In this document: positions 11,140 through 48,786 of the stretch, piece after piece
How the letters are laid out: every line of letters begins with the position of its first letter
Position numbering within the stretch: the stretch's first letter is position 1
From: Aminobacter aganoensis
Lineage (GTDB): Bacteria; Pseudomonadota; Alphaproteobacteria; Rhizobiales; Rhizobiaceae
NCBI RefSeq assembly: GCF_014206975.1
Contig: NZ_JACHOU010000002.1
Coordinates: forward strand, 434,001 to 498,000
DNA length: 64,000 nt
Direction of reading: 5' to 3'
Made by a program: the position numbers and the translations under genes
The notes under the pieces: model-generated
The model's input: the letters and a program-made list of their open reading frames with translations, nothing else
The model's database searches: none
What the model was told of the DNA's origin: nothing

Positions 11140-11172
11140 GGGATCGATCCTTTCAAGGATTGGGGAGAGGAA

Positions 11173-11190
11173 GCGGGGCCGGAGCCCCGC
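11173..11190 (-). terminator. Hairpin after major capsid gene
   Basis: Seven-base stem GCGGGGC/GCCCCGC with a 4-base loop, 10 bases past the capsid gene stop, followed on the minus strand by a pyrimidine stretch (TTCCTCTCCCC) without a true T-run. A partial terminator here would raise capsid output over downstream genes. Confidence 0.5.
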
Positions 11191-11199
11191 CGATCAGCA

Positions 11200-17669: not shown

Positions 17670-17677
17670 GGCACGGG

Positions 17678-18226: not shown

Positions 18227-18231
18227 ATCGA

Positions 18232-18795: not shown

Positions 18796-18799
18796 TGCT

Positions 18800-19585
18800 T
18801 CATTTCCTCTCGAATTCTGCGGGCCGATCTTCGTTCGGCATGAACGCCAGCACGGTCTGCGTTAGCCCCTCAAGCGGGGTGAACGTCAGCAAGATCAGGC
18901 CATTCGTGGTCGCTGTTCGCGTCAGGCACTCGCCATAGACGTCAATCGGGCACTCTTCGTCAGGCCATATGACGTGCTGTGCCGTGCCTTCGAATGCGCC
19001 GCGCCCCTGCTGGTAGGACTTGAAGCCAAGCGTCGACCATTTGCCGCTGACGTGTCTGACCTTGATCGTGTCGACGAGGTCCTGGACACCCTGCTTCCAG
19101 CTTGGCAGGCCAATGAGGCGTCCCGGCAACAAGCCGGTTCCGGTGACGGTCTTTCGCTGCCCTTCGAATGTGATCTCGCCAAGCAGCGCCTTTTGCACCA
19201 CGTCGCGAGTGCTTTCGTTGGTCTTGCCGCAGGCCCATGCCCGGATCGGACCATCGAAGCGCCGGCCCTCCCACCAATCGGGATAGAGGCCAGTCAGGTG
19301 GGCGGAGACTTCGTATCCACCCGCGACTGTCTTTCCCACGCGATTGGCGGCAAGGAAACAGCGCTCGCGATATTCAGCACCCGCCCGGAAGAACTCCATA
19401 TGCTTGGCGTATTTGTGCCTGGCGTGGATGATCCGGCCGTCGGGCTGGATCGTGTCCTCGTCAGGGAACAGGGTGTGAAACATGCGCTGCGACTGGCGCT
19501 TCTGCTTCTCTGCCAAAATCGCGGCAATGACTTCTTTCCGCTCACGCGGCAGCGCTCGCAGCGCCTCGGGCGTCAGCGAAAGCAT
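18800..19585 (-). CDS. Large terminase, N-terminal ATPase half
   Basis: 261 residues. Helical N-terminus, then RCFLAANRVGKTVAGGYE (Walker A-like, residues 79-86) and HVIWPDEECPIDVYGE (Walker B, D209-E210), followed by the coupling motif ILLTFTPLEGL, as in P22-type terminase motors that drive DNA into the head. The reading frame stops just after TQTVLAFMPNEDRPAEFERK, where a normal protein would continue into the nuclease domain, which here is a separate gene at 16258-17001. Directly follows the small terminase. Confidence 0.9.
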   Translation of the reverse strand: MLSLTPEALRALPRERKEVIAAILAEKQKRQSQRMFHTLFPDEDTIQPDGRIIHARHKYAKHMEFFRAGAEYRERCFLAANRVGKTVAGGYEVSAHLTGLYPDWWEGRRFDGPIRAWACGKTNESTRDVVQKALLGEITFEGQRKTVTGTGLLPGRLIGLPSWKQGVQDLVDTIKVRHVSGKWSTLGFKSYQQGRGAFEGTAQHVIWPDEECPIDVYGECLTRTATTNGLILLTFTPLEGLTQTVLAFMPNEDRPAEFERK

Positions 19586-22160: not shown

Positions 22161-22703
22161 CTACGCCGCCTGTATCAGGTCTTCCGGGACAAGGACCGTC
22201 TGATCCTTGCCCAGCATCCTCGACAGGACGAGCTTGGCAAATCCAGGCTTTACCTTGCCTTCCCTGAATGTGGCGGTGATGTTGTCAAACGGCCCGCCTA
22301 TGATCAGAACCTTGTCTCCGTGGATGAAACCTGATCTCGGCCGCTTGCCCTGATCGAATGCACCGTCGGCGCAGAGGTAGCGCAGCTGCTCCACGGCTTT
22401 TTCATCGACAGGCAGGGCTCTATCCGTTCCCGGTGCCCTGACAATGCTGGCGACGTGCCTAAAACGGCGATCATGCTTATTCACGGTCTTGGTCTGCTCG
22501 ATGGATAGCTGGGCGAACAGATAGCCCGGCATGAGCAGCATCTCTGTTTCCTTGCGCTGGCCCTTGGTATGCTTGATCAAGGTGAAGCGCTTGAAGGTCG
22601 GCATGAAATGGTTGATGTCGGCTTCCTTCAGCTCGTCCGCTGCGCGTCTGTCGCCATGGACAGTCGGGCGCACAACATACCAGTTCGGCTTCTGCTCGGT
22701 CAT
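22161..22703 (-). CDS. NusG-like transcription antiterminator
   Basis: 180 residues from an ATG that overlaps the previous stop (ATGA). N-terminal NGN domain: NWYVVRPTVHGDRRAADELKE, then HFMPTFKRFTLIKHTKG and LLMPGYLFAQL, the usual W.....P..E.....L......P.........PL.PGY.F pattern. C-terminal KOW domain about residues 124-176: GFIHGDKVLIIGGPFDNITATF. Family members NusG, RfaH and LoaP bind RNA polymerase and suppress pausing or termination. Host NusG genes sit by rplK, so this is a phage specialised paralogue. It directly precedes the structured leader of the virion operon and probably controls late genes. Confidence 0.85.
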   Translation of the reverse strand: MTEQKPNWYVVRPTVHGDRRAADELKEADINHFMPTFKRFTLIKHTKGQRKETEMLLMPGYLFAQLSIEQTKTVNKHDRRFRHVASIVRAPGTDRALPVDEKAVEQLRYLCADGAFDQGKRPRSGFIHGDKVLIIGGPFDNITATFREGKVKPGFAKLVLSRMLGKDQTVLVPEDLIQAA

Positions 22704-22993
22704 GAATGATCCTTCTGGTATGGGCTCGGGAGTTCTTTGGCGGCGGATCGTTCGATGTTGAGGCGGTGAAGCGCTTCGGCCTCGGAAATCAGGTGGTAGG
22801 CCGCGATCTGCACCGTGTCCCAGCCCTTGCGGAAGAGTTCGAGGGCTGAAAGCGGATTGACCTTGTGCTTCGATGGGCCGCGCCCTCGCGTCTCTTCGAA
22901 ACCTGCGTAGGGGATCAGCGCCATCGGACCTGTCCCCCAAACTGCTCTTTCGACTTCGAGTGCGTCCGAAATGTTGTTTTCGCTACGCTTCAT
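22700..22993 (-). CDS. Hypothetical protein
   Basis: 97 residues. MKRSENNISDALEVERA, then LELFRKGWDTVQIAAYHLISEAEALHRLNIER, which has a helix-turn-helix-like pattern (DTVQIAAYHLISEAEALHRL). Such a short protein could bind DNA, but this is weak evidence. Four-base overlaps with both neighbours show tight coupling to the NusG-like gene. Confidence 0.55.
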   Translation of the reverse strand: MKRSENNISDALEVERAVWGTGPMALIPYAGFEETRGRGPSKHKVNPLSALELFRKGWDTVQIAAYHLISEAEALHRLNIERSAAKELPSPYQKDHS

Positions 22994-24238: not shown

Positions 24239-24721
24239 CTACGCAGCTTTCGAACGTGACTTCGGTGCCGGGCCATAGATGATGCCGAGGCAGGCAACCC
24301 ACTTCGCGCCGGCCGGGATCTGCCTGGTCAGGCTCAGCCGGCGGAACACATCGAGGTTGGCGTCTTCGACCAGCACGGGAAGGTGCGCGTTTTCGGCCAG
24401 CGCCTTCTGGCGCTTGATCAGGAATGGTGGGGTCGGGCCGGAATGGTACGCTGGGGCCGGTAGCCGTGGGCGGGCCCGGATGTCTATAAACTCCTGCCGC
24501 CTGCGAACTTCTTCAATGAATTCCGGCCCGGAGGGGGCAAACTTCTTCGACTGGTCCTTCACGTCGCCAGCCGCGAACCGTTCCGACGCCTCGATTATCG
24601 CCTGATCAGTCTGGCCAGCGCATAGCTTGCCCAGCGTTGCGAACAAGAGCTCGTAGTTCTGGCTTGTCTGGGGAAAGCAGTTCAGCATCTGTGTTATCGA
24701 ATCTTCCGCCTGCTGGTTCAT
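24239..24721 (-). CDS. Hypothetical replication-region protein
   Basis: 160 residues from an ATG with an AAGGATC site. Starts MNQQAEDSITQMLNCFPQTS and contains YELLFATLGKLCAG, IIEASERFAAGDV, AAYHS-like segments and KFAPSGPEFIEEVRRRQEF. This architecture is seen after replication-initiator genes in alphaproteobacterial phages and may be a helicase loader or accessory factor; uncertain. It overlaps the upstream gene by 116 bases in another frame, unusually long. Confidence 0.55.
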   Translation of the reverse strand: MNQQAEDSITQMLNCFPQTSQNYELLFATLGKLCAGQTDQAIIEASERFAAGDVKDQSKKFAPSGPEFIEEVRRRQEFIDIRARPRLPAPAYHSGPTPPFLIKRQKALAENAHLPVLVEDANLDVFRRLSLTRQIPAGAKWVACLGIIYGPAPKSRSKAA

Positions 24722-25556
24722 TTCGCTTGATCCTTCGGGATATGTTGGCTTCGACGGCGGTTTGGTGGCGGCCTGGCGGTGAACCCGAGTGCTGTGCCGG
24801 TGGCGGCGAATGGCTGTTGTTTTGCTTGCGATCGAGCCATGAGACGACAAAGCGCCGCATCCCTTTGCGGGTTTTCCGGCGTGTGGGATTGGCGATCAGC
24901 CAGGAGCGCATGGCACCAAGCTGCTGGATGACATCAACAGCGGGGAATGAGGCTCGCCATTCGGCAACATCCGATTCCGAGACCGGGTACATCTCACCCG
25001 AAACGCATGGAAGCTCGAATGCAGTCGGCGAAGCGACCACGACCGGAGCGGATTTTTCCGGCTCCGGGCAAGAGGATGCGTTAGCATCCGATATATCTGT
25101 ATCTGTATCTGTCTCTTGGGCCGTCACCTCACCGTCACGTGACGGTTGCGTTACGTCACGCGTTACGTTCTCTTGCGTAACGTTATGGTCACGGTCGCGT
25201 TGTTGAACGTCAGATTTAGACTTGATGCGTTCGCGATATCGGCGCTGCCGTTCCTTAGCCCCGTCACTGTCGTATTGACGCTCCCCCCACTTCGCCACCA
25301 TCCCGCCACCGATGCGGCCGAGACTTTCCAAGCCAGCGAGAATAGAACCCATGTCAGCGTCATCACATCGAAGAAAGTAAGCGGCCTCTCCGGTGTCGAA
25401 TTCAAAGCGACCTCCTTCGTTTATCTCTGCAGCGCTTTCGAGAAGCGCGCCCCAAACCCACACCACACGCTCGACTGGCTGCTTTACGCGCACGGCCACC
25501 CGGACGAGTTTTTCGTCACGCATCATTCCTGCGTAATGGCGGAACCACCTGCTCAA
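24606..25556 (-). CDS. Phage replication initiator-like protein
   Basis: 316 residues. N-terminal winged-helix part: MSRWFRHYAGMMRDEKLVRVAV, VERVVWVWGALLESAAEINE and YFLRCDDADMGSILAGLESLGRI, a DnaD/phage-O-like fold in which a chromosome-replication protein reads DNA. A basic segment (KERQRRYRERIKSK) and a variable linker follow; the C-terminal part has the WRASFPAVDVIQQLGAMRSWL motif. In phages such proteins bind the origin and load helicase. The coding sequence may contain the origin, but I could not identify iterons. Confidence 0.65.
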   Translation of the reverse strand: MSRWFRHYAGMMRDEKLVRVAVRVKQPVERVVWVWGALLESAAEINEGGRFEFDTGEAAYFLRCDDADMGSILAGLESLGRIGGGMVAKWGERQYDSDGAKERQRRYRERIKSKSDVQQRDRDHNVTQENVTRDVTQPSRDGEVTAQETDTDTDISDANASSCPEPEKSAPVVVASPTAFELPCVSGEMYPVSESDVAEWRASFPAVDVIQQLGAMRSWLIANPTRRKTRKGMRRFVVSWLDRKQNNSHSPPPAQHSGSPPGRHQTAVEANISRRIKRNEPAGGRFDNTDAELLSPDKPELRALVRNAGQAMRWPD

Positions 25557-25918
25557 GCCGCGATTCCTTGTTCCGTCTGCTGAATCAGCACGACACAGCC
25601 AGGGCCATCCTCAGCCCACTCAAACGAGAGCTTGCGGACGAAGTGGTTGCTGTCGTCTTCGATCAGGCCGTTGGCCTTGAGCGTGTCGAGAATGCACTTG
25701 CCGAGGTTGTCAGCGTCCCGTGCGCGCTTGTCGGGCGCCACGAGGCGGACATAGACAGACACCTGCCCCTTGAGCTTGTTCGGCCGCTGCTGGGCGATCA
25801 CAGCCCATGCTTCACGGCCATAGGCCTTGTAGCGCGGGGTCGGCACACGGCCCCTGCCCTTCACGTTGGTGAAGCAGTCATGCAGCGGGACCGGGAAAGG
25901 CAGTTCAACGCGCGTCAT
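25553..25918 (-). CDS. rusA: RusA-family Holliday junction resolvase
   Basis: 121 residues, start overlapping the previous stop (ATGA). Begins MTRVELPFPVPLHDCFTNVKG (RusA: ..LP.PPS.N...) and contains the key motif DADNLGKCILDTLKANGLIEDDSNH, where D..N..K..LD.L...G...DD... supplies the metal-binding aspartates. RusA dimers cut four-way DNA junctions during phage recombination. Length matches the family (about 120). Works plausibly with the RecT encoded in the rightward operon. Confidence 0.9.
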   Translation of the reverse strand: MTRVELPFPVPLHDCFTNVKGRGRVPTPRYKAYGREAWAVIAQQRPNKLKGQVSVYVRLVAPDKRARDADNLGKCILDTLKANGLIEDDSNHFVRKLSFEWAEDGPGCVVLIQQTEQGIAA

Positions 25919-26163
25919 GCATCCTCCAAACGTCGGAGAACGACGAGCAGGCCCGTTGAGCCAGCATTTCCACATGCAACGCGACGGACGTAGCCACGGG
26001 CAATGAGTTGGTTCAGATACGAATGGAAAGTCCCATAGGCGCGATAGCCAAGATCGGCCGCAACGTGTTTGCGCGGGATCTCAATCAGGTTTCCGACCGG
26101 CGCCAAGCCTGTCAGGTACGAAAGCAGAATCTCGCCGCACGGGGATGGGTGCTTGGCCTTCAT
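25915..26163 (-). CDS. Small winged-helix protein, paralogue of 30848-31081
   Basis: 82 residues: EILLSYLTGLAPVGNLIEIPRKHVAADLGY, then LNQLIARGYVRRVACGNAGSTGLLVVLRRLE. It is clearly related to the product at 30848-31081 (shared LLSY.TGLAPVG, E.PRK, RRLE.A). The layout helix, recognition helix, wing suggests a DNA-binding winged helix. Function unknown. End of a plus/minus strand switch: the next minus-strand gene lies 473 bp upstream. Confidence 0.65.
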   Translation of the reverse strand: MKAKHPSPCGEILLSYLTGLAPVGNLIEIPRKHVAADLGYRAYGTFHSYLNQLIARGYVRRVACGNAGSTGLLVVLRRLEDA

Positions 26164-26187
26164 GCCATACCCCCCCCTATTCCGAGA

Positions 26188-26216
26188 TTGACATATAGGG
26201 CCAATGGTCCTAAGTT
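26188..26216 (+). promoter_or_regulatory. Candidate promoter and operator of plus-strand gene pair
   Basis: TTGACA at 26188-26193, 17-bp spacer, weak -10 TAAGTT at 26211-26216. The spacer and -10 edge contain an imperfect palindrome AGGGCC-AAT-GGTCCT (26197-26211). The palindrome could be the target of the small HTH protein encoded at 26465-26635. The -10 is poor, so this is tentative. Confidence 0.4.
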
Positions 26217-26243
26217 GACTGCGACAAGATCGGAGTTGCAGCC

Positions 26244-26468
26244 ATGAACATTGAAGCCTTCCTCGCCGAACAGCTTGCCCGCCCGATGACGCATCGCGTC
26301 GTCACGACCTACGCCGACGGCAACACCAAGAGCCATGACACGTTCGGCGCTGCTCAGGCTGAGAATTGGGCCGTTGGCGAGCGCCGGAAGATTGGCCGCG
26401 ACCTGACCGACCGTACGACGGGTTCCACCGTTCGCGTGGTATCGGTCGAGGTTGCCGCCCTCGCATGA
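26244..26468 (+). CDS. Small hypothetical protein on opposite strand
   Basis: 74 residues, MNIEAFLAEQLARPMTHRVVT..., containing YADGNTKSHDTFGAAQAENWAVGERRKIGRDL. Starts 28 bases after the candidate -10 and is followed, with an ATGA overlap, by a helix-turn-helix gene. An island of plus-strand genes inside a minus-strand operon. The reading frame has a natural-looking composition. Function unknown; possibly one half of a two-gene regulatory or toxin-antitoxin-like unit. Confidence 0.55.
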   Translation: MNIEAFLAEQLARPMTHRVVTTYADGNTKSHDTFGAAQAENWAVGERRKIGRDLTDRTTGSTVRVVSVEVAALA

Positions 26469-26635
26469 CGCCCGTTGATCTTGAGAGGCGAGCCTCATCT
26501 CTTTTCGGGCCTGACTGGCAGTCCGCACTTGCGCGACGCATCCGCGTAGACCCGCGAACCGTTCGGCGCTGGAAGGCAGGCGACCGCGAAATCCCCGAAT
26601 GGCTGGACGTGATGCTGGAGTTGCTGGAGCGGTGA
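26465..26635 (+). CDS. Small helix-turn-helix DNA-binding protein
   Basis: 56 residues from an ATG overlapping the previous stop. SALARRIRVDPRTVRRWKAGDREIPEW is a good helix-turn-helix with the R.VRRW.AG motif known from phage Cro-like and small regulatory proteins. It stops exactly before the minus-strand methyltransferase stop. Probably regulates its own promoter or the early operon. Confidence 0.65.
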   Translation: MTPVDLERRASSLFGPDWQSALARRIRVDPRTVRRWKAGDREIPEWLDVMLELLER

Positions 26636-27796
26636 TCATGATGTAGCCCTCCGAATTGAGGGCAATCCATAGACATCTATGAATGCCGCTATAACTTCCG
26701 CCGCGGCTTCCGGTACGATCGCATTGCCGCCAACGCGCCAGAGATCCACTCGGCCGGGAAGCCCATCAACCAGAAAGCGAATACCGGATTGGGCGCGCCG
26801 CGCTTTGTCGTCGTGGCAGACGATCCAGTCGGCGTCGGACCAGTAGGTTCCATTTCGAAGCAAAGACCGTTGAGAAGCGGTTCGCCTGAACGCGCTCCCG
26901 ACCTCGCCTTCCTTCCACCCTGCACGTCCGCCACGGTTGGCGTCGGCATGTAGGCTAATGCCGTCGCCGCCAGATAGTCGTTCAAGTTCGCCATGCCGTG
27001 GCCATTCGCCTTGTGCTTCGCCACGTATTCCGGCGAATGAGGTGGAAAGCCGTCCCGAGCCTGTGCTGTCGGCCACATTGATTGCGGTACCTGCGCCATC
27101 TGCCTCGGCAACTGGTCGACCCTGTTCCGGTCGCCTGCTTCCGTTGCCATGCCCGCGCTGTCCTTCCAGTCCCGAGCCGAAGGCGTCACCCAGGGTGACG
27201 CCTGATGCATCTGCGCCGGCAGAGGCTGGCCGCCAGCTCCGAAACTCATGTTCGGGCCACCCTTCTCCCCATCCGAAGCTCTCGGCGTCGACCACGTTGA
27301 TTGCGGACCAGTATTGCCGGTTCCGTTGGTGTGGCGCGTCGACACTGCAAGCCGGGAAATCGACTGACCGGCTGGCGTAGTTTTCTCGCGCCAGATCAGC
27401 GCGGACTCCGTCGAACCAACCGTAGCCAGCCGCTCCCGCAACCTGCTCTCCCATGATGACAGGGGGCCGGGCGGCACGGGCGAGGCGATGTACGTCCGGC
27501 CACAGATGCCTTGGATCATCGGTTCCTTCCCCTTTGCCGGCCGCCGAGAACGGCTGGCAGGGGCATGAAGCGGTCCAGATGGGAGCCCAGTCAGGCCAGC
27601 CAGCAAGTCGAGCTGCGACGGACCAGAGCCCGCCTCCAGCGAAGAGATGGACTTGGGTGAATTTTGCAAGGTCATCGGGCGTCAGTTCCTTGATGGAGCG
27701 CGTGTCGACGACGCCTGGCGCGATCACGCCGTCGTCAATCATTCGGCGGAGAATGTGGGCCGCTGCCGGGTCAATCTCGTTGTAGAGGGCCGTCAT
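26636..27796 (-). CDS. DNA cytosine-5 methyltransferase
   Basis: 386 residues with the C5-methyltransferase motifs in order: motif I VHLFAGGGLWS (52-56 FAGGG), motif IV with catalytic Cys SCPCQPFSAAGKG (79-82 PCQP), motif VI GEQVAG in place of ENV (117-119), motif VIII-like APHQRNRQYW, and C-terminal motif X VGGNAIVPEAAAEVI. The stretch from about residue 170 to 330 is Gly/Ala/Arg-rich and of odd composition, because almost the whole gene is shared with another reading frame (26689-27675). The target sequence is unknown. May guard phage DNA from restriction. The start overlaps the preceding gene (ATGA). Confidence 0.88.
   Translation of the reverse strand: MTALYNEIDPAAAHILRRMIDDGVIAPGVVDTRSIKELTPDDLAKFTQVHLFAGGGLWSVAARLAGWPDWAPIWTASCPCQPFSAAGKGEGTDDPRHLWPDVHRLARAARPPVIMGEQVAGAAGYGWFDGVRADLARENYASRSVDFPACSVDAPHQRNRQYWSAINVVDAESFGWGEGWPEHEFRSWRPASAGADASGVTLGDAFGSGLEGQRGHGNGSRRPEQGRPVAEADGAGTAINVADSTGSGRLSTSFAGIRGEAQGEWPRHGELERLSGGDGISLHADANRGGRAGWKEGEVGSAFRRTASQRSLLRNGTYWSDADWIVCHDDKARRAQSGIRFLVDGLPGRVDLWRVGGNAIVPEAAAEVIAAFIDVYGLPSIRRATS
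26689..27675 (-). CDS. Overlapping protein encoded inside the C5 methyltransferase gene
   Basis: 328 codons without a stop in the +1 frame of the methyltransferase, covering its codons 41-369. The product has a repeated W-x-TP-x-A-x-D pattern (WSTPRASD at 128, WVTPSARDW at 162, PTPTVADV at 244), preceded by SSWESRLRERLATVGSTESAL and TTPAGQSISRLAVSTRHTNG and ended by GPTPTGSSA and NPVFAFWLMGFPAEW. I know proteins with this series of motifs as a frequent phage type encoded with, or inside, C5 methyltransferases; no function is known to me. The motif order makes chance unlikely, but expression is unproven. Confidence 0.6.
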   Translation of the reverse strand: MTLQNSPKSISSLEAGSGPSQLDLLAGLTGLPSGPLHAPASRSRRPAKGKEPMIQGICGRTYIASPVPPGPLSSWESRLRERLATVGSTESALIWREKTTPAGQSISRLAVSTRHTNGTGNTGPQSTWSTPRASDGEKGGPNMSFGAGGQPLPAQMHQASPWVTPSARDWKDSAGMATEAGDRNRVDQLPRQMAQVPQSMWPTAQARDGFPPHSPEYVAKHKANGHGMANLNDYLAATALAYMPTPTVADVQGGRKARSGARSGEPLLNGLCFEMEPTGPTPTGSSATTTKRGAPNPVFAFWLMGFPAEWISGALAAMRSYRKPRRKL

Positions 27797-27987
27797 GCCG
27801 CAGCCCCTTTCCGCTCTATCGATCGGCGATAGTCATCAGCGATGGCGTGAAGGGTTTCGACCTGATACCGCATCCGCTCGCCCTCATGGTCGGGGCGCTT
27901 GTTGCGGCCTTGGCCATGCTGCTCGAGCCATGTCGTCTTGGCCTGGATGATGCCGTTGAGGCAGTCGAGCTTGTCCTGGAGGGTCAT
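27793..27987 (-). CDS. Small helical protein
   Basis: 64 residues: MTLQDKLDCLNGIIQAKTTW, Lys/Arg-rich middle (GQGRNKRPDHEGERMRYQ) and a C-terminal helix. Overlaps both neighbours by four bases. Unrecognised; could be an accessory to the methyltransferase or nuclease. Confidence 0.5.
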   Translation of the reverse strand: MTLQDKLDCLNGIIQAKTTWLEQHGQGRNKRPDHEGERMRYQVETLHAIADDYRRSIERKGAAA

Positions 27988-28736
27988 AGCAATGCCTCCT
28001 GCTTCGGAGCCCGCACGGGCTCAGCCGGGTTCCGCCACTTGTCGTAGTCGGCCTCTATCTGCGGGAAATTGACCGGGTGCTGAGCCCTGAAATCAGGAAG
28101 GTATTGACCGGCAACCCAGCCACCACGCCCGTCCTGGACAAGCCACCGGCCTTGCGTCCATCGAGACATCGAAATCTTGAAGTGGGAGAAGTCCTGCCTC
28201 GTGACGAAGCCGCGCTTTTCGAGCGTGACCACGATCTTGATTGCCCGTATTTTCCAGTCCGTCAGAGCAATGGGGGCACTGGCGCCAGCAGCGACGTCAG
28301 GAACCCATTCGGGCAGATCGAGCCGCCGCGCGGGCGCGAGTTCATGCCAGACTTCGTTCCAGTACTGGTCCGTGGCTGTCGGGAGATCTGGCCATATCGG
28401 CGAGCGGACTACTCCGGGTTCGCGCGGCCGATGGACAACGACAGTGACGCATAGGAGCCGACACAACTCGGCCAGTTCGCGGTTATGAGCCTCGGGAACC
28501 AGCACTGCACGGCAATCGGGCCCCGGCATTGCGACATAGCTTCGACGGCAGTCTTCTGCGGCCTGAAGGATCACCTTGGCATTGAGTTTGAGCTTGGCCT
28601 CGACCCCGATCTGAAAACCGTCGGCGCGGGACAACAGAATGTCGAAACCTCCGGTTTCTGGATAGGCGGTCCAGTTCGCTGGCAAGGCTGCGATGAATGC
28701 TTGGCAGAGGTCGGACTCCTTGGCGAATGTCGTCAT
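27984..28736 (-). CDS. PD-(D/E)XK-like nuclease candidate
   Basis: 250 residues. The N-terminal 60 include GGFDILLSRADGFQIGVEAKLKLN: a D followed by E-x-K (VEAKLK) as in the PD-(D/E)XK nuclease core; a GP..RAVLVP strand follows. The C-terminal third (LEKRGFVTRQDFSHFKISMSRW) looks like a small winged helix. It may cut DNA or be a remnant restriction-like protein. Lies between the CtrA-like gene and the methyltransferase gene, with 4-base overlaps to both neighbours. Confidence 0.55.
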   Translation of the reverse strand: MTTFAKESDLCQAFIAALPANWTAYPETGGFDILLSRADGFQIGVEAKLKLNAKVILQAAEDCRRSYVAMPGPDCRAVLVPEAHNRELAELCRLLCVTVVVHRPREPGVVRSPIWPDLPTATDQYWNEVWHELAPARRLDLPEWVPDVAAGASAPIALTDWKIRAIKIVVTLEKRGFVTRQDFSHFKISMSRWTQGRWLVQDGRGGWVAGQYLPDFRAQHPVNFPQIEADYDKWRNPAEPVRAPKQEALL

Positions 28737-29092
28737 GCCGCCCTCGCCTTCTTCCGGCGATCGACGAGCGTATAGCCCTCGCCCCAGACGGTTTCGATGT
28801 GGAGGTCGAAGGGCTTCAACTTGCGGCGGATGCGGCAGATGAAGACGTCAACAACCCTGTCATAAGGCTCGTCGCTCCGGTTGCTGTAGAGAGCCTGCAT
28901 GATCGCCGATTTGCTGGCGAGTTCGCGCGTCGTCAGAAAGGCATAGATCCGCTTCTCGTAGTTCGTCAGTTTCCATTCGACTGGTATGTGAACGCTGGGC
29001 GGAGCCAGGGCTTCCTCAAGCTGGCGCACCTGCTCCTGCAGCGTTTCGATCTCGCGCCGCTGCCGGATGACGAGATCGTCGACGCCAGTCAT
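28733..29092 (-). CDS. CtrA/OmpR-type DNA-binding domain protein, no receiver
   Basis: 119 residues. Residues 1-30 are a short coiled coil (RQRREIETLQEQVRQLEEAL). The rest is an OmpR/PhoB-type winged helix: LTNYEKRIYAFLTTRELASKSAIMQALY, then YDRVVDVFICRIRRKLKPFDLHIETVWGEGYTLV, very close to the consensus vdvhI..LRkKl....I.TvwG.GY.L. CtrA, the master cell-cycle regulator of alphaproteobacteria, uses this fold but also has a phosphorylated receiver domain, which is missing here. So this protein could bind CtrA-type sites without phosphorelay control; that is inference. Coupled to gcrA-like gene. Confidence 0.82.
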   Translation of the reverse strand: MTGVDDLVIRQRREIETLQEQVRQLEEALAPPSVHIPVEWKLTNYEKRIYAFLTTRELASKSAIMQALYSNRSDEPYDRVVDVFICRIRRKLKPFDLHIETVWGEGYTLVDRRKKARAA

Positions 29093-29640
29093 GCCGCGAC
29101 CTTCCGCAGCAGATCATCAGCCCTGCGTTCGCCCTCGGTGCCGCGACCAACAGACCGCAATGCATGGTGGGCGCAATACGGGCTGTCGAGCACACTGGGA
29201 TGACCGCAGAACAGGTGATCCTCGCCCTTGGCTGCATCATTGACCGCCCAGCGGCATTCGAAGCGGCTGAGATCAGCGAGCGGGACATGACGCGACGCAG
29301 CATCATAATCGGCGCTGCGGATGGCAGGCACTGCAGGTTCCATTCGCTTGACCTTTGCGGATAGCGGGATGACGGCGCTCTTTCGTGGGCTGGACGCTGG
29401 CTTGAGTTTTTTCGCGGGCTTGATCTGGGCTGCTTCGCCTGTGGGGCGGCCGCCAGGATTTGCCCAGAACCCGATTTCGCGCAGGGTCCGGTCCCGGTGG
29501 ACGATGCCGATAATCATGTTGCGAGTGACTTCGGAGCCGCGCTCGCGCGACAGCGCATTAGCGATCTGCGAGGCGCTGAGCTTGTCCCGCAGCTTGCGGG
29601 CGATGAATTCGATCTCATCCGGGGAATAGCTCGGGATCAT
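29089..29640 (-). CDS. gcrA: GcrA-family cell-cycle regulator
   Basis: 183 residues. N-terminal helix-turn-helix: YSPDEIEFIARKLRD..SASQIANALS and TRNMIIGIVHR (GcrA: W...V..L..LW..G.SASQIA..L..VTRNAVIGKVHR). C-terminal part about 127-159: FECRWAVND, then HLFCG and SPYCAHHAL, the sigma70-interacting type C-terminal signature C.WP.G.P....F.FCG.....G.PYC..H. In Caulobacter, GcrA binds sigma70 and methylated GANTC promoters. Here it is a phage copy between a methyltransferase and a CtrA-like domain. Start ATG at 29640 lies three bases past the methyltransferase stop. Confidence 0.88.
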   Translation of the reverse strand: MIPSYSPDEIEFIARKLRDKLSASQIANALSRERGSEVTRNMIIGIVHRDRTLREIGFWANPGGRPTGEAAQIKPAKKLKPASSPRKSAVIPLSAKVKRMEPAVPAIRSADYDAASRHVPLADLSRFECRWAVNDAAKGEDHLFCGHPSVLDSPYCAHHALRSVGRGTEGERRADDLLRKVAA

Positions 29641-29642
29641 GG

Positions 29643-30851
29643 CTATGCGGCCTCCCCACCAAAGAGCGGACCAAAATCCGGAGAAATTGCCTTCTGCGGA
29701 ACCCGCCATTCCGTTTCGATGCGCCTGCGCGACATCTCGGCGTATTCAGGGTTGAGTTCGATCAGCGCCGCGCGCCGTCCGTGGCGCAGCGCGACCAGCG
29801 CCGTGGTTCCGGCCCCGCCGAACGGGTCGAGCACCAGCCCACCTTTTGGACAGCCGGCGAGAATGCAGCGCTCGGCGAGTTCCGGCGGGAACGTGGCAAA
29901 GTGGGCATCGCTGAAGGGCTGCGTGGCGATGTTCCAGACACTAACGGGTGCCGGCTCATAATTGCGAAGGTTGCGGCCGAACCCGCGGAGCGTAGCTTCT
30001 ATGCCTGTGTGGTTGACACCACCAGCATGGCGCGGACTGGCAACGTCCGTAGCGCGAATCTTGGTGCGGGGACCGCCAACGGCCTTCATGGTGCCATTTG
30101 TCTTGGCGCCACCGTTGGCCCTATGTGAGCCTTCCTGGCTTTCGACATCTTGCGACCAGCGTCCGTTGCTGGCTTCAGCAGATGGCTGGCGCACAGCTTC
30201 TGCGTCATAGAAGTAGCGGGCGGACTTCGACAGGAGGAAAATCTTCTCGTGACTGGTCGCCGGACGGTCGCGGATGCTTTCGGGCATCGGGTTCGGCTTC
30301 GCCCAGATGATTTCCGAGCGGACCCACCAGCCATCTTCCTGCAGCGCGATCGCCAGGCGGTTTGGCACCATGCAAAGGTCTTTGGCCTTCAGCGCGCCGC
30401 CGATGGTTGAGAAGGGCTTGTCTCGGAAGGTGCGGTCGTCGTTACCTGTTGCCTTCGTGTCTGCTGCCGAGCGGCCATTCGGGCTGGTGGCGTAGCAGTC
30501 GCCGTAATTGATCCAGAGCGTGCCAGCCGGTTTGAGCACGCGGCGAATTTCGCGGAAGACAGCAACCATGACTGCCAGATGCTCGGCCAGCGTCGGCTCG
30601 AGGCCGATCTGCCCGTCGACGCCATAGTCGCGCAGCCCCCAATAGGGCGGCGACGTCACCACACAGTCGACGGAGTTGTCCGGCAGCAACGCGAGCTGCG
30701 CCAGGCAGTCGCCGACAAAGAGCGTGACGCGCCCGTCGAGGAACCGCCCGTAGGCGTCCATCCAATCATGGGTATCGCCACGCAAGCGCTTGGCCTCTAT
30801 GGCCGCGTCATAGCTCTTGCGGGCGTCGTCGGCGGGATCGTAGTCGCTCAT
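29643..30851 (-). CDS. DNA N4/N6 methyltransferase, beta class
   Basis: 402 residues. Motif IV CVVTSPPYWGLRDYG (TSPPY at 66-70) precedes motif I LVLDPFGGAGTTALVA (342-350), the beta-class order. A TSPPY motif points to N4-cytosine or N6-adenine methylation. CcrM-type enzymes are also beta class but have DPPY, so GANTC specificity is not shown. Other parts: LKPAGTLWINYGD, VRSEIIWAKPNPMPES, and a C-terminal ELNPEYAEMSRRRI. The next genes encode GcrA and CtrA-like proteins. Could protect phage DNA or set methylation marks read by GcrA; inference. Confidence 0.9.
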   Translation of the reverse strand: MSDYDPADDARKSYDAAIEAKRLRGDTHDWMDAYGRFLDGRVTLFVGDCLAQLALLPDNSVDCVVTSPPYWGLRDYGVDGQIGLEPTLAEHLAVMVAVFREIRRVLKPAGTLWINYGDCYATSPNGRSAADTKATGNDDRTFRDKPFSTIGGALKAKDLCMVPNRLAIALQEDGWWVRSEIIWAKPNPMPESIRDRPATSHEKIFLLSKSARYFYDAEAVRQPSAEASNGRWSQDVESQEGSHRANGGAKTNGTMKAVGGPRTKIRATDVASPRHAGGVNHTGIEATLRGFGRNLRNYEPAPVSVWNIATQPFSDAHFATFPPELAERCILAGCPKGGLVLDPFGGAGTTALVALRHGRRAALIELNPEYAEMSRRRIETEWRVPQKAISPDFGPLFGGEAA

Positions 30852-31081
30852 GCCTGTTCAAGCCTTCGAATGACGGTGAAGATTCCGCTGGTGCCGGCGT
30901 AGCCGCGGGCGATCTGGCGGATGCGACGAGTGGAGACCAGTTCGCGGATCAGGACCGCGAACGTCTGGGAGCTTCCGATCTCAAGGTCTTCCATGATCCA
31001 CTTGCGAGGAACCTCGAAGGTCTCGCCAACGGGAGCCAGGCCAGTGAAATAGGACAGCAGGACTGCGGCGCGCGGCGTCAT
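30848..31081 (-). CDS. Small winged-helix protein, paralogue of 25915-26163
   Basis: 77 residues from an ATG overlapping the previous stop (ATGA). AAVLLSYFTGLAPVGETFEVPRKWIMEDLEI, then LIRELVSTRRIRQIARGYAGTSGIFTVIRRLEQA. Same fold and clear similarity to 25915-26163, so the phage carries two copies about 5 kb apart. A DNA-binding role is suggested by the short helix-wing layout only. Confidence 0.65.
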   Translation of the reverse strand: MTPRAAVLLSYFTGLAPVGETFEVPRKWIMEDLEIGSSQTFAVLIRELVSTRRIRQIARGYAGTSGIFTVIRRLEQA

Positions 31082-31572
31082 CCCATCCTCGCGCCGGCAA
31101 AGAAGCAAAGCTGCTTCAAAGAGGTTGGGAGCAGACAGATATGGTAGAGCCCGTCGGGGCTATCCTTGGTCTCGGCATAGGGGATGACATACGAGCGCGG
31201 GCCGGTTTTCGCGGTGATGAAGTCATGGTCGCCCGGGAGAAGCGTGACCTCGTAGCCCGAAGGGCCTTCCTTGACCCTGGTGGCAGGGACGGTGCCACAG
31301 TCCCGATTGGAACAGCACGAAAGAGGATACCTCCACCCGCTCGGGGCCTCATGCGCCTTGGCGTTGGTCGCGGCAAGAACAGCCATCCCAAGCGCTGCGA
31401 TACCAGCTATCCCGGCTCCCCAGCACAGCACATGGAGCACGACGCGAACGGCCGTCGAGCTGCGCACCGGCTCGCCGTCACAGCGCTCATCGATGCATCC
31501 GCACGCTGGCCAGATCGAACAGCCATCGTCCATCGACGTATCGGTTAGGTATGGATAGCCGTTCTGCTTCAT
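31078..31572 (-). CDS. Membrane-anchored Cys-rich protein
   Basis: 164 residues. A Cys-rich cytoplasmic N-terminus (CSIWPACGCIDERCDG), one membrane helix (VVLHVLCWGAGIAGIAALGMAVLAA), then an outside domain AHEAPSGWRYPLSCCSNRDC and YHICLLPTSLKQLCFFA. The outer domain type (H.A.SGW.Y...CCS..DC... and G..HVC..P......CFF.P) is familiar from small secreted proteins of rhizobia and their phages, without known function. The first 86 bases overlap the 61-residue gene; a later start at 31533 is possible. Confidence 0.6.
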   Translation of the reverse strand: MKQNGYPYLTDTSMDDGCSIWPACGCIDERCDGEPVRSSTAVRVVLHVLCWGAGIAGIAALGMAVLAATNAKAHEAPSGWRYPLSCCSNRDCGTVPATRVKEGPSGYEVTLLPGDHDFITAKTGPRSYVIPYAETKDSPDGLYHICLLPTSLKQLCFFAGARMG

Positions 31573-32440: not shown

Positions 32441-33346
32441 TCATGCTGCCGCCCTCGACTTGGTGCGCTCATTGGCACAGCCGGAGCACAGGACGGACAG
32501 CGACTTGATCTTGCACGATGCCGGGTTCAGACAGCCCGGCTCTTTGACTGGTTTCAGGAAGGCCGGAATTTCGGCCTCAGAGATTTGATTGGCGGCTTGC
32601 TCCGATTTGGCGACTACGGCCTCGGTCTCAACGACCGCCCGCACACCGGCGCCGGCATCAGAACTTGGTTCACTCAGATGGCCGCCGTCACCTGTTAGAG
32701 GCCGGTGGCGGGTAATCTCATGCGCATCAACTTCATCGGAAAGGTCTGCCCCGGAGACTTCGTTGACTTCGGAGGGGGTCGAAGCCTCCGGGGCACTCGA
32801 CGTCGTGGAGGAACGATCCGTCGAGGGGGAAGCAATTGCCGAGCTTTCGTCGCCCGACTGCTCGGCGGAGTCGGCTGGCTCTTGGGTCGGGTTAACAGGC
32901 CGGCCCTGCGACAGAGTGCTTGCTGCGCCTTCGGCTGCATCATGGTCTTCGAAAATGACGCCGTCCTCATCGTGAGGCGGCAGGTCCGTCGCAATTCCGC
33001 TATGGCGCATGTTGATGTTGGCGCCGTTGTCGGAGCGATTTTTCTCAATGTTTTCTACGTGCGCAGGCGCGGGTCGCGCGGGAGCCTTCGAAAGGCCCTT
33101 GTTGAGCGCATTCATGTAGAGGTCGTACATCGCTTCCTGCTCCTGCACTTCGGCAGGATCGGCGTTCAGTTCCTTCCGCTTGTCACGGAACACAGCGCGC
33201 GTGGCCTTGGTGTCGTAGCCACCGCCCTTCATGTCTGCGAACAGGTCTTTGGATTCGTCGCCGAGCTTGCCCTTGGCATCTTCGATTTCCTGCCAGCGGC
33301 GGAAAAAGCCAGCAAACTGCTCAAAGGCGATGGTATCGTCGCTCAT
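32441..33346 (-). CDS. GapR-like (DUF2312) protein with long acidic extension
   Basis: 301 residues. The first 85 match the GapR/DUF2312 pattern: FAGFFRRWQEIEDAKGKLGD, DLFADMKGGGYDTKATRAVFR and ADPAEVQEQEAMYDLYMNAL (GapR: L..F..RIERLEEEK.....DIKD.Y.EAKG.GFD.K..R...R.RK.....R.E....L..YL.AL). GapR clamps overtwisted DNA and helps topoisomerases in Caulobacter. Normal GapR is about 90 residues; here a Ser/Glu/Asp-rich linker and a Cys motif end (CLNPASCKIKSLSVLCSGCAN) are added. Overlaps the cro-like gene by four bases. Confidence 0.8.
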   Translation of the reverse strand: MSDDTIAFEQFAGFFRRWQEIEDAKGKLGDESKDLFADMKGGGYDTKATRAVFRDKRKELNADPAEVQEQEAMYDLYMNALNKGLSKAPARPAPAHVENIEKNRSDNGANINMRHSGIATDLPPHDEDGVIFEDHDAAEGAASTLSQGRPVNPTQEPADSAEQSGDESSAIASPSTDRSSTTSSAPEASTPSEVNEVSGADLSDEVDAHEITRHRPLTGDGGHLSEPSSDAGAGVRAVVETEAVVAKSEQAANQISEAEIPAFLKPVKEPGCLNPASCKIKSLSVLCSGCANERTKSRAAA

Positions 33347-33573
33347 GCCGCCCGCTCCGGCTTGGTGGACGGTGCAGGCTCGAAAAACAGCTTATCCGAC
33401 CACTTAATGCGCCGTTCCGCCGCCGCATCCCTGATGCGTTGCATCTCCTCGAGGGTCGGAGACCCGCCCTTTTCCCATCGGGAAACAGTTGCCTGCGTAA
33501 CACCTGCAATCGCGGCAAACTCGGCCTGGCTGAGGCGGAACACGGTCTTGCGGATATGTCGGATAACGCTCAT
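33343..33573 (-). CDS. Cro-like XRE-family repressor
   Basis: 76 residues with a clear XRE helix-turn-helix: RLSQAEFAAIAGVTQATVSRWEKGGSP. First gene of the leftward early operon, divergent from CI. The predicted start of transcription (about 33573) is at the ATG itself and no ribosome site precedes it, so the mRNA may be leaderless. The same recognition-helix sequence, VTQ.TVSRWE.G, occurs in CI, so both should read the same operators. Confidence 0.88.
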   Translation of the reverse strand: MSVIRHIRKTVFRLSQAEFAAIAGVTQATVSRWEKGGSPTLEEMQRIRDAAAERRIKWSDKLFFEPAPSTKPERAA

Positions 33574-33608: not shown

Positions 33609-33666
33609 GAGGATATGCGTTGGTGTATTTTATTTCCATGTCACCCCTTGATATGCGCTGGCGTAT
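33583..33666. promoter_or_regulatory. Immunity operators 1-3
   Basis: Three 15-bp copies of the palindrome TATGCGTNNGCGTAT type: 33583-33597 (TATGCGTATGCGTAT on minus), 33614-33628 (TATGCGTTGGTGTAT), 33652-33666 (TATGCGCTGGCGTAT). Centres are 31 and 38 bp apart. They lie between the divergent cro-like and CI genes; the third covers the CI start codon. Two further copies lie at 34821 and 34852. Confidence 0.82.
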
Positions 33667-34279
33667 GGAGTTGAAAACAGCTATTCGCCGCCTGCGCACC
33701 GTCGCCAGTTTGAACCAAGGTGAGTTTGCCGATGTCCTCGGTGTAACTCAGCCCACGGTTTCAAGATGGGAGCGCGGGTCCAAGCCGGAGTTCGAGCACG
33801 TCGCGAAGCTGAAAGCCTTCGCCGATGAGCGTGGTATTGACTTTGACCTATCAGAGACAGGCTGGGAAACCGGCTGGACACAGACCGTGAGTATTTTTGG
33901 GTATGTCGGTGCCGGTGCCGAGGTCACACCCATACTTCACGATGACAACCATGGCATCGACCATGCTGAGGTCGACTTCCCTATCCCTGACGGGACAGGT
34001 GCTGTCATCGTTCGTGGCGATTCTCAAATGCCTGTATTTGAGGATGGGGATCTGGTCGGCTACCACAAGGAAGGCCGCCCGCCTCACGACTTGATCGGGC
34101 GGACTTGTATTCTCCGGCTGGCAGATGGGCGCATGTACATCAAAAAACTTCGCCGCGGATCGTCCGATGGGCTCTATACCCTGGTCAGTTCCAACGCCGC
34201 AGATATCGAAGATGTCGTGATTGAGTGGGCTGCTCCATTCCGCTTCCGTATTCCGCGGGAGGAATGGTCACGAATGTAA
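33665..34279 (+). CDS. cI: CI-type prophage repressor (LexA/S24 family)
   Basis: 204 residues if started at ATG 33665; ATGs at 33638 and 33653 are alternatives, none with a ribosome site. XRE helix-turn-helix at 17-40 (LNQGEFADVLGVTQPTVSRWERG). C-terminal LexA-type peptidase: cleavage-site-like VGAG (A83-G84), Ser120 in VRGDSQMPVFEDGD and Lys160 in MYIKKL. All autocleavage elements are present, so SOS induction through RecA is likely. It should keep both early promoters off by binding the 15-bp operators and control its own synthesis by operator 3. Confidence 0.9.
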   Translation: MELKTAIRRLRTVASLNQGEFADVLGVTQPTVSRWERGSKPEFEHVAKLKAFADERGIDFDLSETGWETGWTQTVSIFGYVGAGAEVTPILHDDNHGIDHAEVDFPIPDGTGAVIVRGDSQMPVFEDGDLVGYHKEGRPPHDLIGRTCILRLADGRMYIKKLRRGSSDGLYTLVSSNAADIEDVVIEWAAPFRFRIPREEWSRM

Positions 34280-46735: not shown

Positions 46736-47184
46736 CGCGGGCTCTGCGACAGCATGTGGAAGTCGGGGATAAACTGCCGGCAGAAGTGGCCGTTGATGCC
46801 CCGTTGCGCCTCGATGTGGCTGCCAGGCTCGCTTTCCCCGACGGCTCAATGGGTCCGGCAGGCTTGCGGAAGGAGCGAGACGCGGGCAGGTTGGCAACCG
46901 AAATGATCGCTGGCAAGGAGTATGTCACCTTGGCAGAGATCGCGGCTATGAGGGAACGATGTCGAGGACTTCGAAAGGCGCGCGCCTCGTCTGGCGGGAC
47001 GAAAGCCGGAAAGCCAACGGCTCCCTACGCAACAAGGCCGGCTGGTTCATCCGCGACGGGCAATCCTTCATCAGCGCTTGCGGCGGCACTGGCGACCGCG
47101 AACGCGCTGAAAAAGCGCTCGCAGAACACATCACCGAAAAATACCGGCCGGCCCGCGAGCGCGGACGTGATCCCCATCAAGTAG
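46732..47184 (+). CDS. xis: Excisionase-like protein overlapping integrase
   Basis: 150 residues. APLRLDVAARLAFPDGSMGPAGLRKERDAGRL..EMIAGKEYVTLAEIAAMRERCR is a winged-helix, Xis/AlpA-like pattern (sequence of helix, recognition helix, then a TT...I..M wing). The C-terminal tail (LATANALKKRSQNTSPKNTG, ending VIPIK) fits the type found before integrases in rhizobial phages. The last 226 bases are shared with the integrase gene in another frame. Xis directs excision; position and size fit. Confidence 0.7.
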   Translation: MTRALRQHVEVGDKLPAEVAVDAPLRLDVAARLAFPDGSMGPAGLRKERDAGRLATEMIAGKEYVTLAEIAAMRERCRGLRKARASSGGTKAGKPTAPYATRPAGSSATGNPSSALAAALATANALKKRSQNTSPKNTGRPASADVIPIK

Positions 47185-48209
47185 GCGTCGCGGACGTCGT
47201 GAACGTCTACATGCAGGACGTCGTGCCAACTCATGCATCGCCGTCGGAGGCCGCAAGCCGCTTGGTGGCTATCCTTGGCTTCTTCGGCGGCGACATGCTG
47301 TCGGATGTCAATGGGCAGCGATGCCGCGACTATGTCGACCAGAACCCAAAGAAGGCGGCAGCGCGCCGCCAGCTCGAAGATCTGCGGGCTGCCATCAACC
47401 ATTATTGCGCTGAGGGCTACGTCACCACAGCCCCCAAGATCACGCTTCCAAAGAAGCCCATTGCACGCCACAGGTGGCTGACACGACAAGAGGCTGCCCG
47501 GCTTCTGCTCGCAGCCTGGCGCATGCGTCAGACATGGAAGGGCGAGGAAAGCGACCGCCGCACTGGCCGCCATGTGGCCCGCTTCATGCTGACGGGCCTC
47601 TACACCGGGACTAGATCCGGCGCGGTATGCGGGGCTGCGATGCGACCGACCGAAGGGCAAGGCTTCGTCGACCTCGCCCGCGGCGTCTTCTTTCGCCGAG
47701 CACAGGACGCAGTCGAAACCAAGAAGCGCCAACCAGCCGTTCGCTTGCCCGATCGCCTTGTCGCCCACATGCGTCGGTGGGCAACAACGCCGCTCGAGAT
47801 GAAGACCCGAGGGCGCAGCAAGAGCCAGATCGTTGGCCGCATGATCGCGCATGACTACGTTGTGGAATGGAACGGAAAGCCTGTCCTGTCGATCAAGAAG
47901 GCCTTCAAGTCGGCCGTCGAGGCTGCGGGGCTCGGCTGGTACGAAATGGCAATCGGGAAAGATGGCAAGCCGAAGCGTGTCTTCAAGACCGACGTCACAC
48001 CCCACACGCTGCGGCACACCGCGGCAACATGGCTGATGCAGAACGGCACCGAGCTATCCCTGGCGGCCAGCTACCTCGGAATGACCGAGCAGGTTTTGCG
48101 TGACACCTATTGGCACCACCATCCTGATTTTCAGGCCAAGGCCGCCGCCCTGATCACCGCCAAATCGCCGGAGATGAGGGTCAAGAGCAACGTCGTCAGG
48201 ATGCCCTGA
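46959..48209 (+). CDS. int: Tyrosine-type phage integrase
   Basis: 416 residues. N-terminal arm part (RNKAGWFIRDGQSFISACG), core-binding part about 75-160 (VVNVYMQDVVPTH), catalytic domain with R219 (GLYTGTRSGAV), H349 and R352 (TPHTLRHTAATW) and nucleophile Y384 (RDTYWHHHPD). It catalyses site-specific recombination between phage and host attachment sites. The gene ends 117 bases before the tRNA-Pro fragment, the likely attachment site, and starts inside the excisionase gene. Confidence 0.95.
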   Translation: MSRTSKGARLVWRDESRKANGSLRNKAGWFIRDGQSFISACGGTGDRERAEKALAEHITEKYRPARERGRDPHQVGVADVVNVYMQDVVPTHASPSEAASRLVAILGFFGGDMLSDVNGQRCRDYVDQNPKKAAARRQLEDLRAAINHYCAEGYVTTAPKITLPKKPIARHRWLTRQEAARLLLAAWRMRQTWKGEESDRRTGRHVARFMLTGLYTGTRSGAVCGAAMRPTEGQGFVDLARGVFFRRAQDAVETKKRQPAVRLPDRLVAHMRRWATTPLEMKTRGRSKSQIVGRMIAHDYVVEWNGKPVLSIKKAFKSAVEAAGLGWYEMAIGKDGKPKRVFKTDVTPHTLRHTAATWLMQNGTELSLAASYLGMTEQVLRDTYWHHHPDFQAKAAALITAKSPEMRVKSNVVRMP

Positions 48210-48326: not shown

Positions 48327-48372
48327 GTTCGGGACGATGGGGTCGCAGGTTCAAATCCTGCCACTCCGACCA
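48327..48372 (+). other. attR: Attachment site core: 3' part of tRNA-Pro(CGG)
   Basis: 46 bases from the anticodon loop (GTTCGGGAC with CGG) through GATGGGGTC, T-arm GCAGG-TTCAAAT-CCTGC, acceptor 3' strand CACTCCG, discriminator A and CCA. The matching 5' acceptor CGGAGTG, D arm and 5' anticodon stem are missing upstream, so this is a duplicated tRNA end. It marks the phage/host junction. Whether to name it attL or attR depends on convention; the other copy with the whole tRNA should lie left of the window. Confidence 0.88.
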
Positions 48373-48786
48373 GAAAAAAATCCCGACATCACGATCTGCA
48401 AAGCCTTGGCGGCACACCCGCCGGCGCATGCGCGCCACAACTGGGCGCCACCCGTCGCTTTCGCCTGCCACTCGCCACAAGCAAGCCACCATGTCCTGCC
48501 TGCATCGATACAGATGCCGCCGTTGCAGGCAATCCGTTGTTTGGCCAATCAGGCGCGTCTTCTTGAAACCTTCCCACACAACCCAATAGCACAACTCAAT
48601 TCACGCAATGATTGTAGAAGAATTTATATGGATTGTTGGGATATGATACAGTCTTTCTTGAGCATCAGCTACCATCAGTCATCACATTAGCAAATCAATA
48701 ATCTTCTATGTGCAATCTGCTGCTGATCTTGAGCGTCTCCACAGGGTGATGTGAATAGATCTTGGCTATCGCCAAACAGGTGGCAT
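48373..48786. other. AT-rich intergenic stretch after prophage
   Basis: About 410 bases, AT-richer than its surroundings, beginning with a GAAAAAAA run after the tRNA end. No convincing gene. An open frame at 48325-48690 runs through the tRNA piece and has no protein character. Regulatory sites for the TadE-like gene may lie here; none was defined. Confidence 0.6.

Follow-up and report, generated by a model that had tools for sequence, protein, structure and literature searches.

Analysis of a 64,000-nucleotide stretch of Aminobacter aganoensis DNA (contig NZ_JACHOU010000002.1, positions 434,001 to 498,000; the whole stretch is called the window here, and coordinates refer to it) revealed a prophage whose early region encodes three proteins related to alphaproteobacterial chromosome or cell cycle proteins: a GapR-domain protein, a GcrA homologue, and a protein with a CtrA-type DNA-binding domain. 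They are accompanied by a DNA methyltransferase of a family that often adjoins GcrA. The CtrA-type protein lacks a receiver and carries a heptad helix in its place. The set would work in the manner of the host regulators; it does not duplicate the CcrM-GcrA-CtrA circuit. The explanation that we prefer, and to which we give about an even chance, is that the phage retunes host transcription early in lytic growth, with a CtrA mimic that would act in trans without phosphorylation. The first-pass annotation of this DNA had named the methyltransferase, GcrA, and winged-helix genes; all three are present on the minus strand, and their families were assigned correctly (Table 1). The GapR-domain gene on the same strand was missing from it.

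A predicted CtrA-type DNA-binding domain behind a heptad helix

The winged-helix protein consists of 119 residues, the heptad helix followed by the DNA-binding domain, and contains no receiver with a phospho-acceptor aspartate. It scores 44.2 bits against PF00486 (cut-off, 26.2). Among 18,950 NCBIfam models, CtrA ranked first with 41.5 bits and TorR next with 32.5; the NCBIfam CtrA cut-off of 350 applies to the full-length protein. PF00486 was found at 20 places in the host genome, including the winged-helix gene itself, and host CtrA was the best of the 19 others (33.6 versus 25.0 bits). Comparison of the recognition helix (16 residues) and the wing (11 residues) revealed 8 plus 9, or 17 of 27, positions identical to host CtrA. 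The 18 other host PF00486 proteins reached at most 14 of 27, none of them with VFIC, and phage relatives reached up to 22 of 27; the relative in locus L301 has 13 of 16 helix and 9 of 11 wing residues identical to host CtrA. Profile comparison with CtrA over the DNA-binding domain gave a probability of 99.4. A tree of 96 rows and 96 columns, flagged for few columns and long branches and containing the window protein twice, separated 78 rows (54 phage proteins, 14 CtrA, the RDJL CtrA, and 9 others, including host paralogue L078) from 18 rows (17 host proteins and 1 phage protein) with a support of 99/93. The phage copies did not form one clade. Judged by these comparisons, the winged helix is of the CtrA type and not of the generic OmpR type, and the earlier description of a receiver-less CtrA-type domain holds.

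CtrA activity is tied to phosphorylation. In an alignment (A6) of 28 sequences chosen from family loci, plus the window, heptad positions 4, 8, 11, 15, 18, 22, 25, and 29 of the N-terminal helix were occupied by L, I, V, or M in 62 to 100% of the 18 to 28 filled rows. QLE was invariant, and E20 and R23 were nearly so. We infer that the protein may pair through this helix, which would replace the phosphate switch. Searching with A4 for this coil-CtrA family revealed 39 viral-contig loci, the window included, 28 of them at an identity of at least 40%, the helix not being confirmed in every weak one, and at least 8 genome-contig loci. Among the matches listed, the nearest named relatives came from Mesorhizobium, Rhizobium, Sinorhizobium, and Shinella. 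Two queries, the window protein and the L297 protein, gave no match covering 80% of either protein in 50,697 phage records. The matches there were mainly to the DNA-binding domain, and the longest, in RDJL3, spanned residues 17 to 109 and started inside the helix.

Eight family loci (L279, L285, L286, L287, L289, L290, L292, and L301) carry tandem winged-helix genes, a VESH-type gene lying just before the CtrA-type gene. In the tree, the VESH-type protein was closest to host protein L078. The tandem genes are perhaps mimics of two host regulators. The C-terminal -AA of the CtrA-type protein was considered as a degron, and this idea was dropped because GCGGCATGA-like overlaps end other genes in this region identically.

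A GcrA homologue with both domains

The GcrA gene starts with ATG at 29640, 2 nucleotides past the methyltransferase stop codon and behind an upstream GGGGAGG. Position 29646 holds an ATA codon, from which translation in this frame gives I-A-M-I-P-S-Y; searches labeled 29089-29646 used a query with two extra N-terminal residues. The protein passes the curated Pfam cut-off for PF07750 (65.9 versus 26.9 bits) and matched chain 7ye1_G over residues 8 to 163 (E 8.4e-10). The alignment with relatives (A1) revealed invariant Cys, Phe-Cys, Cys, and His columns and conservation of both halves. Passages of PMC7403470 describe a DNA-binding N-terminal domain and a sigma-interaction C-terminal domain for GcrA; both are predicted in the window protein, in agreement with the first reading of this gene. 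With 46.4 bits, it lies below the NCBIfam equivalog cut-off of 280, and on its sequence the phage GcrA is a homologue and not the host orthologue. Among 199 genomes sampled from the family, which spans 109 genera, the best-scoring nonself matches were 37% (G096) and 43% (G189) identical, with shorter partial matches of up to 55%. Relatives are frequent in viral contigs, with 264 confirmed.

The phage in locus L097 encodes a GcrA-like protein of 97 residues (10972-11262, minus strand), one gene from a winged helix, that comprises the sigma-interaction-type half alone; this domain may therefore exist without the DNA-binding half. The GcrA search over 14 control genomes also matched Sulfolobus acidocaldarius, an archaeon in which GcrA is unexpected.

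A beta-class methyltransferase distinct from CcrM

Analysis of the methyltransferase sequence (402 residues) revealed motif IV as SPPY at residue 67 and FGGAGT at residue 344, followed by about 53 residues. Host CcrM has 377 residues, with DPPY at residue 46, FFGSGT at residue 231, and a C-terminal domain of about 140 residues after this S-adenosylmethionine motif. The NCBIfam CcrM equivalog model gave 93.9 bits against a cut-off of 830. The SPPY motif, the missing C-terminal domain, and this score rule out CcrM identity, and the enzyme can no longer be read as the phage version of CcrM. Relatives of the enzyme were found in 220 phage records, with hosts including Mycobacterium, Gordonia, Prochlorococcus, and Pseudomonas; such hosts are not known to have GcrA. 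The enzyme also matches the type II methyltransferase model PDLC03387 with 316 bits.

GcrA is known to read N6-methyladenine (m6A) at GANTC. According to passages of published work, S/DPPY/F is a hallmark of enzymes forming N4-methylcytosine (m4C) (PMC6712171), and the beta group is listed with DPPY or SPPY (PMC2890505). Reading of m6A at GANTC by the phage GcrA is not to be assumed because the mark set by the window enzyme could be m4C or m6A. GANTC occurs 66 times in the window versus 331 expected. Its density is 1.02 per kb in the phage versus 1.11 and 1.21 per kb in the flanks, and the scarcity was dropped as a phage signal because these densities are alike.

Position of the genes within a temperate prophage

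The prophage lies in a tRNA-Pro gene and measures about 59.8 kb between attachment (att) repeats; among its genes are those for an integrase, a RecT-like protein, terminase, and a portal-type protein. The second copy of the 47-bp tRNA-Pro(CGG) 3' repeat begins 11.45 kb left of the window. Between the divergent Cro-like and CI-like repressor genes lies an intergenic region containing ATGCGTAT repeats, and all the genes in question are downstream of cro. This position suggests that they are expressed early in the lytic cycle of a temperate phage, in agreement with the lytic timing supposed in the first reading.

Table 1. Features of the prophage in the window
Feature	Position	Strand	Evidence or remark
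NusG/RfaH-like antiterminator	22161..22940	-	PF02357 E 1.3e-10; NF033644 56.2 bits, below cut-off 100
Putative replication initiation protein	24606..25556	-	phrog_3729 E 2e-7
RusA-type endonuclease	25553..25975	-	PF05866 E 1.9e-9
C5-cytosine DNA methyltransferase	26636..27796	-	PF00145 E 2.6e-11; phrog_363 E 1.1e-62
P250, putative PD-(D/E)XK-type nuclease	27984..28736	-	phrog_15779; conserved D-x(n)-ExK
Receiver-less CtrA-type winged helix (residues ~40-110) with N-terminal heptad helix (residues 4-29)	28733..29092	-	PF00486 E 2.1e-11
GcrA homologue, 183 residues, N-terminal helix-turn-helix (HTH) DNA-binding domain and C-terminal sigma70-interaction-type domain	29089..29640	-	PF07750 E 6.9e-18
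Beta-class amino-DNA methyltransferase, phage family	29643..30851	-	PF01555 E 1.3e-45; phrog_67 E 6.8e-76
P86, 4-nucleotide overlap with methyltransferase start	30848..31108	-	No Pfam or PHROG match
301-residue protein with N-terminal GapR-type DNA-binding domain (residues 9-82)	32441..33346	-	PF10073 E 4.2e-13
Cro-like HTH protein, first of the leftward genes	33343..33573	-	PF01381 E 2.3e-10
CI-like repressor, HTH_3 and Peptidase_S24	33620..34279	+	Divergent from cro
Phage integrase	46959..48209	+	phrog_1 E 1.3e-29; PF00589
Right att copy, 47-bp repeat of the tRNA-Pro 3' part	48327..48373	none	

The first-pass annotation had treated the methyltransferase, GcrA, and winged-helix genes as a tightly joined unit. 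The junctions are indeed tight, with a 2-nucleotide gap between the first two genes and a 4-nucleotide overlap between the last two, but the trio is not self-contained. It is a slice of a longer run because P86, the methyltransferase, GcrA, the CtrA-type protein, P250, P64, and the C5 methyltransferase are joined by six junctions, of which five are 4-nucleotide overlaps (P86/methyltransferase, GcrA/winged helix, winged helix/P250, P250/P64, and P64/C5 methyltransferase) and the sixth is the 2-nucleotide gap. Upstream of this run lie cro, the GapR-domain gene, P134, and P164 on the same strand. cro and the GapR-domain gene also overlap by 4 nucleotides, and the GapR-domain gene, P134, and P164 are set apart by gaps of 354 and 109 bp. 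A plus-strand open reading frame with a PHROG match (26366-26635) lies between the C5 methyltransferase and RusA genes. Given these gaps and this reading frame, the idea that cro and the replication gene share one transcript is tentative at best. A minus-strand open reading frame at 26160-26639, which overlaps the end of the C5 methyltransferase gene and was first counted in the chain, was removed; it has no Pfam match and lies opposite the plus-strand frame.

The GapR-domain protein passes the Pfam test for GapR (PF10073, 49.1 bits; cut-off, 22.6). P250 had no match among Pfam, NCBIfam, or PADLOC models; the D-x(n)-ExK pattern conserved among its relatives, judged by eye in the alignment, suggests a PD-(D/E)XK-type nuclease. 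A second copy of P86, 43% identical, lies after the C5 methyltransferase gene at about 25.9 to 26.1 kb of the window (L003:13502-13729). The large terminase gene appears to be in two pieces about 1.7 kb apart, an N-terminal one at 18800-19585 and a C-terminal one at 16258-17082 (together within 16258-19585), with open reading frames without assigned function between them. No Rfam match was found in the window at gathering thresholds.

Neighborhoods of related genes

Three sets of loci were compared, with thresholds set by us and hidden Markov models built partly from the same loci: 79 nonself loci anchored on the methyltransferase (the best 80 of 244 confirmed relatives, less the window itself), 79 nonself loci anchored on GcrA (from the best 80 of the 264 confirmed viral-contig relatives), and 46 loci with 8-kb flanks anchored on the CtrA-type protein. 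Certain loci are represented more than once, in different sets or in the same one (L111 = L207, L118 = L254, L149 = L232, L275 = L288, and L276 = L293). Around the methyltransferase, GcrA was found in 12 of 79 loci, always on the same strand and in 7 of them within 150 bp; GapR was found in 12 and a winged helix in 4. The adjacency of 7 in 12 has a binomial probability of 6e-10 under uniform placement and of 5e-5 if a random gene has a neighbor chance of 0.1. When the near-identical GcrA proteins of L146 and L151 are counted once, 6 of 11 lie within 150 bp (3e-4 at the same neighbor chance).

Around the CtrA-type protein, GcrA was found in 4 of 46 loci, the methyltransferase in 3, and GapR in 2, so this protein occurs mostly without GcrA and the methyltransferase in its 8-kb flanks. 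All three components were found within the fetched stretch in L099, L100, L118 (= L254), and L310, the winged helix of L310 being on the other strand; the order in L100 is GcrA, methyltransferase, a 199-residue open reading frame, C5 methyltransferase, and winged helix. Other phages carry GapR, methyltransferase, and GcrA genes in one stretch without a CtrA-type gene (L113, with gaps of 27 and 47 bp; L111 [= L207]; L130; and also L086, L216, and L217).

Proposed role and alternative explanations

Under the preferred explanation, once repression is lifted, the phage GcrA would use the sigma70-interaction domain that it has kept to recruit RNA polymerase to promoters methylated by the enzyme encoded next to it, with a mark that could differ from m6A at GANTC. 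The CtrA-type protein would pair via the heptad helix, and we propose that phosphate would therefore not be needed. In trans, it would either compete at promoters that host CtrA controls or activate them constitutively. Supercoiling in phage replication would be managed with the help of the GapR-domain protein, and the regulators would jointly push the host towards a state favoring that replication. If this is true, a self-pairing phage CtrA domain would represent a viral bypass of the phosphorelay and a natural tool to uncouple CtrA binding from phosphorylation, and the recurring methyltransferase-GcrA pair would offer a direct test of GcrA reading marks other than m6A at GANTC. A broader version, which we regard as rather doubtful, holds that zipper-type CtrA mimics are widespread in rhizobial temperate phages and let them take over the host CtrA regulon independently of phosphorelay activity, and that here, with GcrA, the methyltransferase, and GapR, they form a self-contained lytic substitute circuit.

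Several results weigh against retuning of the host by such a set. The order methyltransferase-GcrA-CtrA type was absent from all other loci examined, which rules out a conserved three-gene cassette of this exact order there and bears out, for these loci, the first reading's own ground for refutation, a gene order without conservation in related phages, though the methyltransferase-GcrA pair recurs. More than half of the methyltransferase loci (55 of 80) have neither GcrA nor GapR nor a winged helix. Around GcrA, the methyltransferase was found in 12 of 79 loci and within 150 bp in just 2, GapR in 13, and a winged helix in 3; with 7 of 79 versus 2 of 79 loci within 150 bp, the link between the two genes is clear solely from the methyltransferase side. 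Host paralogue L078 also shares 8 of 16 recognition-helix residues with CtrA, and it was placed among phage rows in the tree. Even when one mismatch was allowed, the window contained no CtrA box TTAA-N7-TTAA (2.0 expected). Across 45 CtrA-type loci totaling 623,751 bases, with some duplication between collections, N7 sites numbered 25 with one mismatch and none were exact; at other spacings, there were 13 to 41 and 0 to 1, respectively. The host genome has 24 exact boxes versus 27 for a reversed-pattern control.

The prophage part, including its left end, likewise contains no exact CtrA box. The 78 GcrA-anchored viral loci have 7 exact N7 sites versus 0 to 3 at other spacings; with one mismatch, there was no excess (41 versus 34 to 72). 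Passages of PMC9437464 describe host CtrA control of phages, which the excess of exact sites in the GcrA loci would fit. Because phages with their own CtrA-type protein lack exact CtrA boxes, this protein would act on host DNA in trans or at another motif.

The second of these options leads to an alternative that we consider possible, if on the unlikely side: the regulators serve phage promoters, which the methyltransferase and GcrA would mark and activate, the CtrA-type protein having drifted to a phage operator, and they are not aimed at the cell cycle of the host. The tight coupling of the regulators with other phage genes, the methyltransferase-GcrA adjacency in several other phages, and a weak relative of the window antiterminator in 13 of the 46 CtrA-type loci are consistent with it, as is the lack of CtrA boxes in the phage if a different motif is used. 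However, the recognition helix and wing remain near those of host CtrA, most of all in relatives such as that in L301, and this closeness suggests that CtrA-type DNA is still bound. An unlikely alternative is that the CtrA-type protein does not act alone at DNA sites and instead binds host CtrA, or a different regulator of the host, as a dominant-negative or decoy partner; the missing receiver would fit, and helix residues QLE (invariant) and E20 and R23 (nearly so) may provide a surface for a partner in addition to plain pairing, but the entire DNA-binding domain, including recognition helix and wing, is retained. Ordinary DNA modification or restriction-modification cargo, in which two methyltransferases protect DNA, P250 is the nuclease, and the GcrA and CtrA neighbors are incidental, agrees with the PDLC03387 match, the PD-(D/E)XK-like pattern, and the 220 phage records but is improbable, given that P250 has no counterpart among the Pfam, NCBIfam, and PADLOC models, that its relatives occur at just 4 of 79 methyltransferase loci (L138, L139, L154, and L164), and that the GcrA adjacency exceeds random placement.

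Comparison with known systems

The window protein resembles host CtrA (L072) in the DNA-binding domain, recognition helix, and wing and differs from it by the heptad helix in place of the receiver. CtrA-type winged helices in phages have precedents: Roseobacter phages RDJL Phi 1 and Phi 2 encode proteins annotated as CtrA, and others are the "CzcR-like" or HTH proteins of RDJL3 and of Paracoccus and Rhodobacter phages. In four such phage regions, no GcrA or methyltransferase is annotated directly beside the winged helix; the DNA methylase of RcGingersnap lies 2.6 kb off.

Phage-encoded GcrA is already known from phiCbK-like Caulobacter phages, Agrobacterium phage Atu_ph08, and some phiLM21-like prophages of Sinorhizobium meliloti, according to passages of PMC3556154, PMC6630229, and PMC12429752. 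Rhizobium phage RHph_Y1_10 (MN988487) also has a GcrA, with a DNA methylase annotated 1.9 kb upstream, and the Atu_ph08 passages place a cytosine-specific methylase (gp7) two genes from GcrA (gp5). The passages and the record covered name no CtrA-type protein beside GcrA in these phages. A 72-residue "transcriptional regulator" overlapping GcrA in RHph_Y1_10 was considered as a second GcrA-CtrA pair and dropped, being of the LuxR type by eye (A2). The window phage differs from the known GcrA phages in that its GcrA gene stands between the SPPY methyltransferase and the CtrA-type gene, with GapR upstream.

The GANTC methyltransferases of sinorhizobial and Paracoccus prophages, PhiLM21_p027 among them, are likewise alphaproteobacterial phage enzymes encoded near replication genes; in the passages available of PMC5537653, PhiLM21_p027 and the Paracoccus enzymes have NPPW/F/Y motifs, and the window enzyme differs as a predicted beta-class SPPY enzyme. 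The GapR family protein of Erythrobacter phage R34L1 was called the first in a phage genome (passages of PMC12185513); that of the window differs as the N-terminal domain of a 301-residue protein encoded directly behind cro. The passages covered from the open PMC library describe neither the coil-CtrA family nor the methyltransferase-GcrA-CtrA gene order. Measured against these passages, most other parts of the set were known individually, and the coil-CtrA variant, recurrent in many related prophages, appears to be new.

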